From the NCBI RefSeq assembly GCF_002201895.1, contig NZ_CP019436.1, forward strand, positions 853,619-917,618: a stretch of 64,000 nucleotides of DNA, in the 5' to 3' direction. The notes below the pieces were generated by a model. It did no database searches. It saw nothing but the letters and a program-made list of their open reading frames with translations, and was not told the DNA's origin. Position numbers and translations under genes: made by a program. Source of the DNA: Methanopyrus sp. SNP6. Its GTDB lineage: Archaea; JAADCQ01; Methanopyri; Methanopyrales; Methanopyraceae. Within the stretch, counting starts at the first letter, position 1. Each line of letters opens with the position of its first letter. Shown here one piece after another: positions 8,299 to 16,448 of this stretch.

Positions 8299-8749
8299 GA
8301 AAGGCCTCAAACCCCTCCTCACAGGCTTCCGCGAGGCCGTTCTCGACTTGACCGACGGTGAGGGCGTCCTCGTGTATTCCGGATGTGCCGGCACGTGCAC
8401 ACCGTTCGCGGAACTTCTCGCGTTCACGCTGCGGGAGACCGACCTCGAGCAGTACTACTCGATAGATCTCCGCCGCGAGTACCTGCGAATGGAGCTGCGC
8501 GACCACGGCTACACCGTCACCGACGAGCGGGAGGAGCTCGAGAGCGCGGACGTCGTCGTCCTCCTCGGCGGCCTCGCTATGCCGATATCCGATGCCACAC
8601 CTAACGACGCTCGGGAGTTCATCGAGGAGCTCGGGAACCCCCCCGTCGTCGGCGTGTGCTTCATGAACATGTTCGAGCGCGCCGGCTGGACCGACGAGCT
8701 CGACTTCCACACGATCATCGACGGATACCTGGAGGTCGCGGTCAAGTGA
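8291..8749 (+). CDS. DUF2124-like methanogen protein
   Basis: This 152-residue soluble protein starts at GTG8291 inside the end of the sua5 gene. It contains VYSGCAGTCTPFAELLAFTL near residue 28 and ADVVVLLGGLAMP followed by VVGVCFMNMFE, with conserved-looking cysteines. The pattern resembles the small DUF2124 family of methanogens, which has no known function. I recall this family only moderately well. It is translationally coupled on both sides (8-base overlap upstream, GTGA overlap downstream), which points to co-expression with the RNA-modification genes around it. Confidence 0.65.
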   Translation: MPEKGLKPLLTGFREAVLDLTDGEGVLVYSGCAGTCTPFAELLAFTLRETDLEQYYSIDLRREYLRMELRDHGYTVTDEREELESADVVVLLGGLAMPISDATPNDAREFIEELGNPPVVGVCFMNMFERAGWTDELDFHTIIDGYLEVAVK

Positions 8750-11445: not shown

Positions 11446-12834
11446 TTGAGCCGCGATCATCGCATTGGGGGTCATCCGGACGTCGGTCCGGTCAAATGGC
11501 CCGTCCTGGCCTGCGTAGCCTTTCTCGCTGCTGTAACAGTGCACGTTCCACTTCTCAGCCTACCACCAGGTGATGCAGTTCATGTTTACCTTCGGTCTTC
11601 AGGTATCGACCCTCTAGTTTATAACACTCCTGAAGGGCTGATTCCTATTTATTACCAGCACTACAACGGTATCGTACCGTACTGTGATTACATATTCGAA
11701 TACCCACCGATACCGGCCGCCACTTTCACTCTCTCAATGATCGCAGCTCTTATTCTCAAATCCGTACATCCTGTAAACCAGAAAGCTCTTGTCATACTGC
11801 TATTACCGTTGCTCGGAGCAATCTACTTATCCTTCCTATATTGGATCATTTTACGGAACAAAAATCTATCGATCCTAACGCTAGTGACAACTTCGATTTA
11901 CATAATTTTAATAATAGTATTTGGATTACCATTATACAAATTCTATTTTACTTTTGTTCTGTTCTGCGCCATCGCTCACGCTACGTTAATGTATCAATTT
12001 TGGAGATTAGTTCGCACTTTAGGCAAAGAAGAGTCTCTCCTTTTAATGTTATCATCACCAACTGTAATAACATATTCAACAGCGAATTGGGACTTACTCT
12101 CTGCAGCTTTTATGACCAAAGGCGTCAGAGAGATACTCTCTGGAAGGGTTAAAGGATTACACTGGTTCGCGCTAGCCGTTCCAGTAAAGTTAATACCGAT
12201 ATTCCCAACCGTAGCATTAACAGTTACATTACTTAAAAGGAAAGAGTTGATAACAGAAGGTCCGAAAGTCATCACCTTAGCCATCCTACCATATATGTTA
12301 ATCCCGATAATTTCATGGAAAGGATTCTTGAGGTTCATTAAGTTTCATTCCAACTGGTACTGTGAATATGGAATTTGGACACTCCTCTTCAAGGACCTTG
12401 ACCTAATCAAGATATCCTACTTAGCGTCCGTAGCTGTAACTTATTTAGTCATTGTTATTATACTAAAGAAACGCCACTTCGTGTACGATAGTCTAGATTG
12501 TTTACTCAAAGTTACGTACATAATGGTCGCAGCACCTTTCGTATTTTCTTACATTTTTACACCTCAAATGTTAATAAATATACTTCCATTTATAATCCCT
12601 CTCTACCCCCGACTTGCACCCCTAGTTGACACACTTAATTTCCCTATTGCTTTCACACTTAAGTTCGATTATTTACATAATTTGAATCCGTTTTCGGCAC
12701 CGTCCCTAACGTATTTCCTGGCTCAATCGCGAAACGTCCTCCTCATGGTCACCCTGCTTTTGTCCTTTCATCGGCTTAAGGGCTGCCGCTCGTCAAAAGG
12801 GTCCATCAGGACCCCCCGGGGGACGGGTGGTTGA
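11446..12834 (+). CDS. Multi-pass membrane protein, probable GT-C type glycosyltransferase
   Basis: This 462-residue protein has roughly ten hydrophobic segments. It carries features of lipid-linked-sugar mannosyltransferases of the GT-C/DUF2029 kind: the loop motif FEYPPIPAA after the first helices, WDLLSAAFMTKG and AVPVKLIPIFPT. Such enzymes move sugars from polyprenyl phosphate on the outer membrane face. The catalytic assignment is inference. The gene is strikingly AT-rich with Ile/Lys/Tyr codons unlike its neighbours, which suggests recent transfer. TTG11446 is the only upstream start that keeps the N-terminus; an AAAATATAA run lies just before it. The stop overlaps the dph6 start as TTGA. 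Confidence 0.7.
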   Translation: MSRDHRIGGHPDVGPVKWPVLACVAFLAAVTVHVPLLSLPPGDAVHVYLRSSGIDPLVYNTPEGLIPIYYQHYNGIVPYCDYIFEYPPIPAATFTLSMIAALILKSVHPVNQKALVILLLPLLGAIYLSFLYWIILRNKNLSILTLVTTSIYIILIIVFGLPLYKFYFTFVLFCAIAHATLMYQFWRLVRTLGKEESLLLMLSSPTVITYSTANWDLLSAAFMTKGVREILSGRVKGLHWFALAVPVKLIPIFPTVALTVTLLKRKELITEGPKVITLAILPYMLIPIISWKGFLRFIKFHSNWYCEYGIWTLLFKDLDLIKISYLASVAVTYLVIVIILKKRHFVYDSLDCLLKVTYIMVAAPFVFSYIFTPQMLINILPFIIPLYPRLAPLVDTLNFPIAFTLKFDYLHNLNPFSAPSLTYFLAQSRNVLLMVTLLLSFHRLKGCRSSKGSIRTPRGTGG

Positions 12835-13508
12835 GGGCGGTAGCGCTGCTCAGCGGTGGTAAGGACTCTACGCTGGCCGCACACCTGGCGGTTGAGGACG
12901 GTTACGAACTGGTATACGGGCTCACCGTTATACCGTCTGACTCAGAGAGCATGATGTTCCACGTGCCGAACGCGGGCCTCGGTACGCTGGTGGCGCGGGC
13001 GTTAGGACTCGAGCCTTTGGAAGTACGGTCTGGACGGGACGATGAGGCCGATATCGAGGAGATGGCCCTCGTCCTCGATGAGCTCGACGTGGACGCGCTG
13101 GTCTCCGGGGCCATCGCGTCCAGGTATCAGAAGGAACGGCTCGATAGGTTGTGCGAGGAACTCGAGATCGAACACGTGCATCCGTTGTGGGGTATGGACC
13201 CGTTCGAGGAGCTCGAGATCCTGGTGGAATGCGGTTTCGAGGTGGTCGTGATCGGAGTATCGGCGGCCGGTATGGACGAGTCCTGGTTAGGCCGTAGGAT
13301 CGATCGGAACTTCATCGAGGACGTCCGACGGTTGTACGAGGATTACCGGGTCCATCCGGCTGGTGAAGGGGGTGAATACGAGACTCTAGTCTTGGATGCC
13401 CCCCTTTTCGAACGTAGGATAGTCCTAGAACGCGTTGAAAAGCAATGGGATGGTTTCTCGGGCGAGTTAATCGTGAAAGAGGCCAGGCTAGTGCCTAAGC
13501 GGCGATGA
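12831..13508 (+). CDS. Diphthine-ammonia ligase (Dph6 family ATP-PPase)
   Basis: This 225-residue enzyme of the adenine nucleotide alpha-hydrolase fold has the PP-loop LLSGGKDSTLA at its N-terminus, and GEGGEYETLVLDAPLF near residue 178 as the Dph6 signature. It performs the last amidation of diphthamide on the histidine of EF-2, whose gene is also in this window (46564-48771). The start is TTG12831, overlapping the upstream stop. Codon use is normal for the genome, in contrast to the AT-rich gene it overlaps. Confidence 0.88.
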   Translation: MRAVALLSGGKDSTLAAHLAVEDGYELVYGLTVIPSDSESMMFHVPNAGLGTLVARALGLEPLEVRSGRDDEADIEEMALVLDELDVDALVSGAIASRYQKERLDRLCEELEIEHVHPLWGMDPFEELEILVECGFEVVVIGVSAAGMDESWLGRRIDRNFIEDVRRLYEDYRVHPAGEGGEYETLVLDAPLFERRIVLERVEKQWDGFSGELIVKEARLVPKRR

Positions 13509-13606
13509 TCGGACTGAGCTATGGCAGAGCGCCGTCGGGGCGCGATGAGCGGGGACACGGGGGTGAGCGCGCCTCGAACCGAGGACGAGCGGGACCGGAA
13601 ACAGTT

Positions 13607-13618
13607 ACATTTATTTTT
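13607..13618 (+). promoter_or_regulatory. TATA-like box before the acidic-protein gene
   Basis: ACATTTATTTTT is an isolated AT-only run in GC-rich DNA. It lies 39 bases before a GTG (13658) that has a GGGGGCGATC ribosome site. It favours that GTG over the upstream ATG13505. Confidence 0.5.
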
Positions 13619-13657
13619 CTTGAGGTTATACCACTGTCGGGGGCGATCGACTCCGAC

Positions 13658-14791
13658 GTGCCGTATGTTGGGGGTCTCCCGTTGGGTGGCGACGACGGTG
13701 GCAAATTCCACGACGTGAACGACGACGGTAAAGGCGATGATCTTTTCGACCTGTCCGAAATAGACGACGGATCGGATGATGGGCTCGAAGTACCCGACAT
13801 CGAACTTGACGGAGAGTCGGACGGTTCCGATCAGCACTCCGGAGGATCCGATCCTGACCATCAGACTGACCATGCTGACCATGAGAATGGTATTGAGAAC
13901 ATCCTGTCCTACGACGATACAGACGTCGACGTGTCCAACACGAACGTTAGTACGGCTAAGTCCGGCTTGGACGCCGATCTGGATTCGAACAGTGAATCGT
14001 TCAGCGAGTCGAGTAGTGAATCGAACGCGACACAGTACAACGATCAACACCAGGATCTCGACTTCGATCAGAGCACAGAGCAGGTCCAGGATTCGACGTC
14101 TGAGTCGGTTTCTGATGTGGAGAACGTCTCGGAATCCAACCCTGACGTCGACATGAACGTTGTTGATGACGACCCGAGTGGTAACGTGAATATCGAAGAT
14201 ATAGACGTCAGCGAAGAAAACGAAGTCATAAACGAGATCGTGAACGATAACGACAGTTACTACTACGTGGATGAGGATCACTACCTGGACGACCCTTCCT
14301 CGGGTTCCCCAACGTCGGACGCCTGGAACTTCGGGTCAGTCGATCCGCCGTCGGATCCGAGCGCTTCTGACCTTACAACTCTGGTATTAGGTCCGGAAGA
14401 CGATCCGTACATGGTCGTGGACACTCAGGAAGGTCAGGTGGACCTTCTCGTTGGTGATGATCCGACGACTATCGACATGGATCAATCGGAACTCTCACAG
14501 CTACTGGACCTCGTGAACTGGCTCGACGGGAACGTACCGTCCGATATACTGGACCTACTGTATCAGATCCTAGCGTACCTGCTGGAGATATTCTACGGGA
14601 TCCTTCCGTTAGACCAGATCTTGGGTTGGGTCCAACAGATCTCGGAGTACGCGCTCAGCGGCGAGCTCGACTCCGACGCGCTGGGCCAGATGTTGGACGT
14701 ACTAGAGACCGCCACCAGCCCGTTACAAGCGGTCACCGGTCTCACGAGTTTCCTAGGGGACCTCGGCTCGTCCCTACTGGATATTTTCTGA
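13658..14791 (+). CDS. Very acidic Asp/Ser/Asn-rich low-complexity protein
   Basis: About 377 residues from GTG13658; the same frame is open back to ATG13505, but the TATA box and ribosome site favour the later start. Residues 15-35 contain DVNDDGKGDDLFD, which resembles a calcium-binding Asp loop. The next 200 residues are almost all Asp, Ser, Glu, Asn, Val and Gln, with very few basic residues. The last 130 residues are different: amphipathic or hydrophobic helices such as SDILDLLYQILAYLLEIFYG, ending GSSLLDIF. There is no clear signal peptide. It may be a surface or cation-binding protein. No family is recognised. Confidence 0.7.
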   Translation: MPYVGGLPLGGDDGGKFHDVNDDGKGDDLFDLSEIDDGSDDGLEVPDIELDGESDGSDQHSGGSDPDHQTDHADHENGIENILSYDDTDVDVSNTNVSTAKSGLDADLDSNSESFSESSSESNATQYNDQHQDLDFDQSTEQVQDSTSESVSDVENVSESNPDVDMNVVDDDPSGNVNIEDIDVSEENEVINEIVNDNDSYYYVDEDHYLDDPSSGSPTSDAWNFGSVDPPSDPSASDLTTLVLGPEDDPYMVVDTQEGQVDLLVGDDPTTIDMDQSELSQLLDLVNWLDGNVPSDILDLLYQILAYLLEIFYGILPLDQILGWVQQISEYALSGELDSDALGQMLDVLETATSPLQAVTGLTSFLGDLGSSLLDIF

Positions 14792-15114
14792 GTATTCTCT
14801 AACCTCATCTCTCGACACTCTCGTTCGATGTCTCGTTAATTTGGAAACATAATCGTATTTTCATGATCATACGATTTACGTATCATCCGTGCATGAAAAT
14901 TGCAATATAGTACATAGATAACACGATATTAGTGCGTAAGTCACATGAATATTATCGCATGATCTACGCAAATACAGCGTATTATCGTCAAAAATTTATA
15001 ATATCGTCTATGCATGGCTCTCCGACGATCATGCATAAACCGTAATATCCAACATCGAGTTAACGTCCGTGGGAAGTTCAAAAGCTCGATTTACTTGCGG
15101 GAAAAACAATTCGG
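14792..15114 (+). other. AT-rich spacer with recurring short motifs
   Basis: About 320 bases without a gene. From roughly 14830 to 15020 the DNA is far more AT-rich than its surroundings. ATGATCAT/CATGATC-like words recur (near 14870, 14957, 15028) and ATTATCG/CGATATTA words recur (near 14925, 14950, 14980). It lies between the stop of the acidic-protein gene and the stop of the convergent pilin-like gene, so it should not be needed as a promoter for either. Its role is unknown. Confidence 0.5.
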
Positions 15115-15480: not shown

Positions 15481-15705
15481 TGAGACGAATCTTAGTACGT
15501 GGGTGGGTAAATATCCCGTAAAACCTGGGATGAGGAGCGCTCCCGATACGGTTTCCCGCAGATCGGTGACGAGTGCGGGACCCAACCGACCGCTTCCGTT
15601 CTGTTTCCTTCCTAGACTATCTGTTTAGATCTGGAGATGAGCGGTCGCACAACTCTGTGGCAGAGCCGGTCGCACTCCCACTGTTTGTGCGTCTGTAACG
15701 CAAAG

Positions 15706-15722: not shown

Positions 15723-16448
15723 GTGGAGCGGCACGTGGGGGAACGGCCGATGGCCGGATCACCCACAGCCCGTCCCGACGCCACGCCCGTCCGGGCGCCG
15801 GAACGTATCCGAGTCCCCAAGCCGCCTCGGGATCCCGTCGAACAAGCCCGGGTCTTACGCGTGCTCCTCGAAACCGTGAGACGCGGAGTGCTCCCGTTCT
15901 TGGGTGCGTCGTACCGGTCGGTGAACGGGAAGGTGTATGGGCCGTACTACGAGGCCAGGTGGAAGCCGCGGAAGGGCGAGCGTGGCCGCACCATCTACCT
16001 GGGCAAGTCCGAGAACGAGAGTGTTCGGTTCCTTGAAGCGTGGCTGTGGGAGGTACGCAGGGCCGCCCCACGGCTGGCCGAACACCGGAAGGCCAAATGG
16101 TTCGTCGCGCGTGCCGTTCGGAGGGCGCTCGCGGCGCTCCTGACCCGGTTCGAGGGCGACCTCGAGGAAGCCCTCGAACTAGCGGGTGAGATCCTCCGCA
16201 AGGTTGGTAGGATACTGACGGGAACGCCGTTCGACCCACTGCGGACGTACTCCAGGCCGAGGGGTGGTAGAAAGCTCCTCAGGATGCTTCTCGGGCGGTC
16301 CACCGGCGAGTTCCGCGACGTTCTCCTGGAGATGCTCAGCCCGTGGCCACCATGGTACTGTTTGACACTGCTCGAACGTCTTCAGGGGAGAACAGCGGCG
16401 TGCGAATACCATCGGGCGAGGGTTCCTCGGCCTGGACCGGCGGTGTAA
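15723..16448 (+). CDS. Hypothetical basic protein with a GPYYEARW...IYLGK motif
   Basis: 241 residues from GTG15723, or 232 from ATG15750, which fits the TATA box better. Residues 60-100 contain VNGKVYGPYYEARW followed by GRTIYLGKSENE. This is the kind of short beta-hairpin motif seen in small nucleic-acid-binding or recombinase-associated proteins. The remainder is strongly basic and helical, with many Arg and Lys. Codon use is GC-rich like the core genome. No partner genes are near. The function is unknown and the motif resemblance is only suggestive. Confidence 0.55.
   Translation: MERHVGERPMAGSPTARPDATPVRAPERIRVPKPPRDPVEQARVLRVLLETVRRGVLPFLGASYRSVNGKVYGPYYEARWKPRKGERGRTIYLGKSENESVRFLEAWLWEVRRAAPRLAEHRKAKWFVARAVRRALAALLTRFEGDLEEALELAGEILRKVGRILTGTPFDPLRTYSRPRGGRKLLRMLLGRSTGEFRDVLLEMLSPWPPWYCLTLLERLQGRTAACEYHRARVPRPGPAV

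Follow-up and report, generated by a model that had tools for sequence, protein, structure and literature searches.

What kind of protein is encoded by an extremely acidic reading frame in Methanopyrus, and does it act at the cell surface, as a preliminary description of the locus proposed? The frame lies in Methanopyrus sp. SNP6, in a stretch of 64,000 nucleotides (hereafter the window) which corresponds to bases 853,619–917,618 of a 1,421,521-bp single contig. Genomes of Methanopyrus strains KOL6 and SNP6 have been published at about 1.43 Mb (PMC5504354). Five Methanopyrus genomes were compared, i.e. the window genome and four relatives including M. kandleri AV19 and a MAG, which together are all that the collection used holds for this phylum. 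On present evidence, the product is a true orphan, in which a new domain is predicted, and not a surface protein.

Gene extent and start codon

The preliminary description placed the gene at 13607–14791. The open frame stands, since orthologues and substitution rates bear it out (see below), and it extends from well upstream of 13607 up to a stop codon at 14789–14791. The start does not: base 13607 belongs to an ACA codon, and the surrounding stretch is T-rich and TATA-like. A putative promoter element, TTTATTTTT, is located there on the + strand (13610–13618; consensus reading only), and the same T-rich stretch occurs at the same place in AV19. A Shine-Dalgarno-like GGGGGT (13670–13675, + strand) precedes a TTG codon at 13682 by 6 nt and has counterparts at similar spacing in the two orthologues: GGAGGG ahead of a GTG in AV19 (position 8359 of locus L006) and GGGGGTG ahead of a TTG in the MAG (9948 of locus L007). 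All three proteins begin with MG[GRK]. Because AV19 and the MAG share both this Shine-Dalgarno/start arrangement and the ‘MG’ N-terminus, TTG 13682 is most likely the true start. The gene thus delimited (13682–14791, + strand) encodes a 369-amino acid protein with a pI of 4.05, a net charge of about −91, no cysteine and 3 Lys/Arg.

An upstream ATG at 13505 was dropped as a start candidate, being situated in a conserved block (13500–13572) that changes to the far side of the gene in the MAG. This block shares ~90% identity with its counterparts in AV19 and in the MAG; it precedes the acidic gene in the window and follows it in the MAG. Another block, at 15527–15594, shows the same ~90% identity, and both are better conserved than the DNA around them. 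They possibly correspond to small RNA genes, as C/D-box-like motifs would suggest; no Rfam match was obtained for either block.

Selection, distribution and gene neighbourhood

Compared with AV19, the dN/dS ratio is 0.24 overall (0.22 for the N-terminal arm and 0.24 for the C-terminal domain described below), at a dS of about 1.0; the gene is therefore real, coding, under selection and maintained. It evolves faster than housekeeping genes, the neighbouring conserved genes having ratios of 0.09–0.16.

In AV19 and in the MAG, the orthologues adjoin a diphthamide-synthesis gene; conservation amounts to 64% over the protein for AV19 and to 44–45% in the C-terminal domain for the MAG. The fourth genome (94% complete) retains the genes for diphthamide synthesis and for the membrane protein upstream, and the acidic gene is absent from the site, its place being taken by a gene which we take to be CofH. 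In the fifth, the contig ends at hypF, before the syntenic site can be read. A search for eroded copies in other strains therefore found the gene, which is single copy, intact in three of the five genomes and missing from its site in one. No relative outside Methanopyrus was detected in a scan of 84,980 species genomes or among viral contigs, phages and plasmids, and a mobile or viral origin was rejected on the latter ground. The accessory character attributed to the locus is thus upheld, as the gene is restricted to the genus and missing from its syntenic position in one member. A lineage-specific origin and fast divergence would fit the five-genome sample of the phylum equally.

Flanked by the diphthamide-synthesis gene and a gene on the opposite strand, the acidic gene is preceded by a promoter-like stretch of its own, and no functional neighbourhood is apparent. 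Two observations concern the wider surroundings. A 462-amino acid, membrane-protein-like reading frame without family match lies in an AT-rich stretch at 11446–12834 (~48% GC versus 58%), and a GC-richer, 466-amino acid counterpart adjoins the diphthamide gene in locus L016. A gene of the DUF1678 family (a Pfam family without known function) is found at 15723–16448; further copies exist in the window genome (G000:C1:810246–810962) and beside a box array in the MAG (L007; arrays are described below).

An acidic arm conserved in composition

Residues 1–230 (13682–14371, + strand) form an Asp/Ser/Glu/Asn-rich arm predicted to be disordered from its composition and from its AlphaFold pLDDT, mostly 32–47 as means per 10-residue block. 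The compositional bias that had first drawn attention to the locus is real, extends over ~230 residues and is an outlier at the scale of the genome. Among 1,421 non-overlapping ORFs, the acidic protein has the highest Asp fraction and the highest D+S+N+E fraction. Its best 150-amino acid window reaches 56.7% D/S/N/E (rank 1), the next being a coiled-coil protein with 45.3%. In net negative density it ranks second (0.215, genome median 0.029), after a 122-amino acid ORF with a poly-Glu tail, presumably the acidic ribosomal stalk protein; since the ranking used the long reading from ATG 13505, these values understate its acidity. Given this outlier status, the acidic composition is neither due to chance nor a reflection of the proteome background.

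The arm is hardly alignable with that of the MAG copy. Its net charge is nevertheless about −67 in the window, −59 and −65 in the other two orthologues, and an acidic, disorder-promoting composition is kept as the sequence drifts; the alignments thus show conservation of composition rather than of sequence.

Histidine content differs between arms: 23 residues in the MAG (with runs such as HDDHHDHHERE), 7 in the window and 4 in AV19. These histidines raise the question of a metal-ion buffer or store, in which an Asp/His-rich arm would chelate divalent ions (Ni, Zn, Ca, Mg) and the C-terminal domain would serve as assembly platform. The His/Asp-rich MAG arm, a small His/Asp cluster retained in the window and AV19 arms, and the presence of hypF (nickel-hydrogenase maturation) 1.7–2.6 kb downstream in all three genomes with the acidic gene are consistent with such a role. 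However, the window and AV19 arms have just 7 and 4 histidines, neither cysteine nor a conserved chelating motif is present, the stretch resembling an EF loop is not conserved, and hypF is on the other strand, outside any operon with the acidic gene. We consider such a metal store unlikely.

A predicted C-terminal domain without detectable relatives

Residues 233–367 (14378–14782, + strand) constitute a folded C-terminal domain, delimited by AlphaFold prediction and conservation, and are the best conserved part of the protein across the three species. Modelled alone from two orthologue sequences, the C-terminal 146 amino acids gave a pLDDT of 89.3 and a pTM of 0.86, the predicted fold being compact, with four short strands and five main helices. 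The last 130 residues are devoid of Lys and Arg. The description of a hydrophobic helical tail was accurate as to the helices; a membrane helix is not seen, since the helices are amphipathic and not membrane-spanning, with a best 19-residue Kyte-Doolittle window of 1.67, and belong to a compact strand-plus-helix-bundle model.

The design of the protein had been judged to resemble no known family, and this holds. Profile and sequence searches with the C-terminal 135 residues (Pfam, NCBIfam, PHROGs, PDB sequences) and fold searches (PDB and viral folds) gave no significant match; Foldseek with the domain alone against the PDB returned nothing below an E-value of 0.1, a search with the full-length model being meaningless because of the disordered arm. 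We regard it as a new predicted domain for which these searches found no relative. Another Methanopyrus genome contains a 146-amino acid ORF with the segment GPRVYPYMVVDRETGRVWVY (YPYMVVD), beside a GH114-like gene (L008, 6517–6954). It resembles the start of the domain over only 22 columns (hhalign probability 23%), and its status as a paralogue or homologue of the acidic protein is unproven.

Cellular location

A surface or matrix protein, exported and then anchored or assembled outside the cell, would suit the composition, which is like that of extracellular acidic repeat regions. Weak matches of the AV19 copy to Sdr/Clf adhesin models (E 0.004–0.3, in the low-complexity stretch only) and a class III-type pilin-like gene ~0.3 kb downstream, with a Pfam score under the cut-off, point the same way. 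However, no signal peptide or membrane anchor is present in any of the three orthologues: from the 13682 start, the protein begins MGGDDGGKFHD, with no hydrophobic segment and no match to a Pfam signal model. A longer N-terminus read from ATG 13505 would cross the block that is conserved outside the gene, downstream of it in the MAG. The pilin-like gene is read from the opposite strand, is separated from the acidic gene by a conserved AT-rich element, and was not found beside the MAG orthologue. The surface role initially proposed is therefore unsupported, because the conserved start leaves neither signal peptide nor membrane helix. The sequence indicates that the protein is probably not secreted; it may be exported by an unrecognised route, and we regard an extracellular function as improbable.

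An AT-rich element with repeated boxes

Downstream of the acidic gene lies an intergenic element of ~280 bp (14835–15112) with 36% GC in a 58% GC genome. The window genome has a second copy at 389,677–389,956 (G000:C1; locus L037), between convergent genes which we take to encode a ribosome-recycling-type ABC protein and a YfcE-like phosphodiesterase. In AV19, copies occupy the same pair of sites (L006, 9454–9732; L038, 9305–9584). Two Methanopyrus genomes thus carry the element twice each, with 34–36% GC and always between convergent genes. Since the AV19 copies are closer to each other (92% identity) than to their window-genome counterparts (77–80%), their alignment suggests concerted evolution or gene conversion.

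The element is characterized by ATYYRYGYAT boxes; as this pattern was chosen after the sequences had been seen, the following counts describe rather than test. Allowing at most 1 mismatch, there are 8 boxes in each of the window and second copies, where dinucleotide shuffles predict 1.2 and 0.75. In the MAG, an intergenic region that follows the orthologue at a distance of ~0.8 kb (L007, 11990–12295), otherwise diverged, contains 9 boxes where 0.9 are expected, several in exact 11-bp tandem. With at most 2 mismatches, the tandem pattern occurs at six places in the window genome (the element, four other intergenic and one coding) and its reversed control 0–1 times. Other arrays of the window genome (G000:C1) are near 532019–532147, 606284 and 1345545.

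A structured RNA was rejected (folding z-scores of −0.4 and −1.7, no Rfam match), and a DNA-level element is more likely. No Orc1/Cdc6 homologue has been detected in M. kandleri (PMC2643942), and the Cdc6_C profile found nothing above cut-off in any of the five Methanopyrus genomes. A replication origin is a tempting reading for that reason. It is unsupported by our analysis: for both copies, the GC, TA and purine skews and the gene-strand jumps are within background or of opposite sign. Archaeal skews are often weak, so that an origin may have escaped this analysis. The element is a candidate origin, operator for a regulator or segregation site, and the last two fit as well as the first.

Its proximity bears on whether the acidic protein is a histone or nucleic-acid-mimic chaperone, whose arm would bind basic DNA-binding proteins, perhaps at the element itself. 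Acidic chaperones are generally built in this way, with a folded core that bears a disordered acidic arm, and a box array lies within ~1 kb of the acidic gene in the three genomes that have it. However, Foldseek against the PDB matched the fold to neither nucleoplasmin nor NAP1 nor any other chaperone core, and the second copy of the element, ~479 kb away, is without an acidic gene. We think this analogy rather unlikely to hold. Less likely by far would be a Methanopyrus-specific functional pair, in which the element, its 11-bp boxes being helically phased, would be a chromosome-maintenance site (origin or segregation) and the acidic protein the chaperone or assembly factor for its proteins; we mention it as a long shot.

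Proposed role

We tentatively favour a Methanopyrus-specific, probably cytoplasmic polyanion, to which we assign a probability of roughly 0.4. The C-terminal domain would self-associate or dock on one partner. The arm would act as a flexible polyelectrolyte gathering cations and/or holding basic macromolecules, for example histone or ribosomal proteins, the whole forming an ‘anchor domain plus acidic arm’ working in a hot, salt-rich cytoplasm. A start codon and Shine-Dalgarno kept in three species, an N-terminus that is not hydrophobic, the preserved charge of the arm, selection on both parts, a disordered arm joined to a confidently modelled domain, and the single copy all argue for this polyanion. 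The two-sequence model and the lack of a functional gene neighbourhood argue against it. A high cytoplasmic salt concentration is reported for M. kandleri and would weaken purely electrostatic binding.

With this locus comes a predicted domain family that has no detectable relatives, is confined to one deep-branching hyperthermophile genus and carries a disordered arm among the most acidic in the genome. It offers a test case for how disordered polyanions function at temperatures close to the upper limit for life. The AT-rich element may matter more than the protein, as a concrete DNA site bearing on replication start in Methanopyrus, although the skews give an origin no support.

Comparison with known systems

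The calcium-loop-like DVNDDGKGDD of the preliminary description recalls EF-hand, dockerin and FG-GAP-like loops by the DxNDDG that opens it in the window protein. A loop of the EF-hand or dockerin type would be expected to persist among orthologues and to have DxDxDG, a hydrophobic residue at position 8 and D/E at position 12, whereas DVNDDGKGDDLFD has Gly at 8 and Phe at 12, and the loop is absent from both the AV19 and MAG orthologues. The protein may still bind cations in the general manner of a polyelectrolyte.

MSCRAMM adhesins of the Sdr/Clf type share an Asp/Ser-rich low-complexity stretch with the AV19 orthologue (E 0.004). The score is 14.6 bits for a curated cut-off of 2500, and signal peptide, adhesin domains and a strict SD repeat are all absent; we therefore dismissed the adhesin identity as a low-complexity artefact.

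Closer in architecture are the nucleoplasmin/NAP1-type histone chaperones and prothymosin-like polyanions, which likewise have a long Asp/Glu/Ser disordered segment with few basic residues on a compact domain. The Methanopyrus arm differs in being Asp/Ser/Asn- rather than Glu-rich and N-terminal, in an archaeal, genus-restricted protein; no nucleoplasmin/NAP-type core was matched by sequence or by Foldseek against the PDB at E ≤ 0.001.

With the salt-adapted acidic proteomes of other archaea, finally, the protein has in common an acidic surface in a salt-rich cytoplasm. There, however, the likeness ends: with a net negative density of 0.215 against a median of 0.029, it is an extreme outlier in its own genome.
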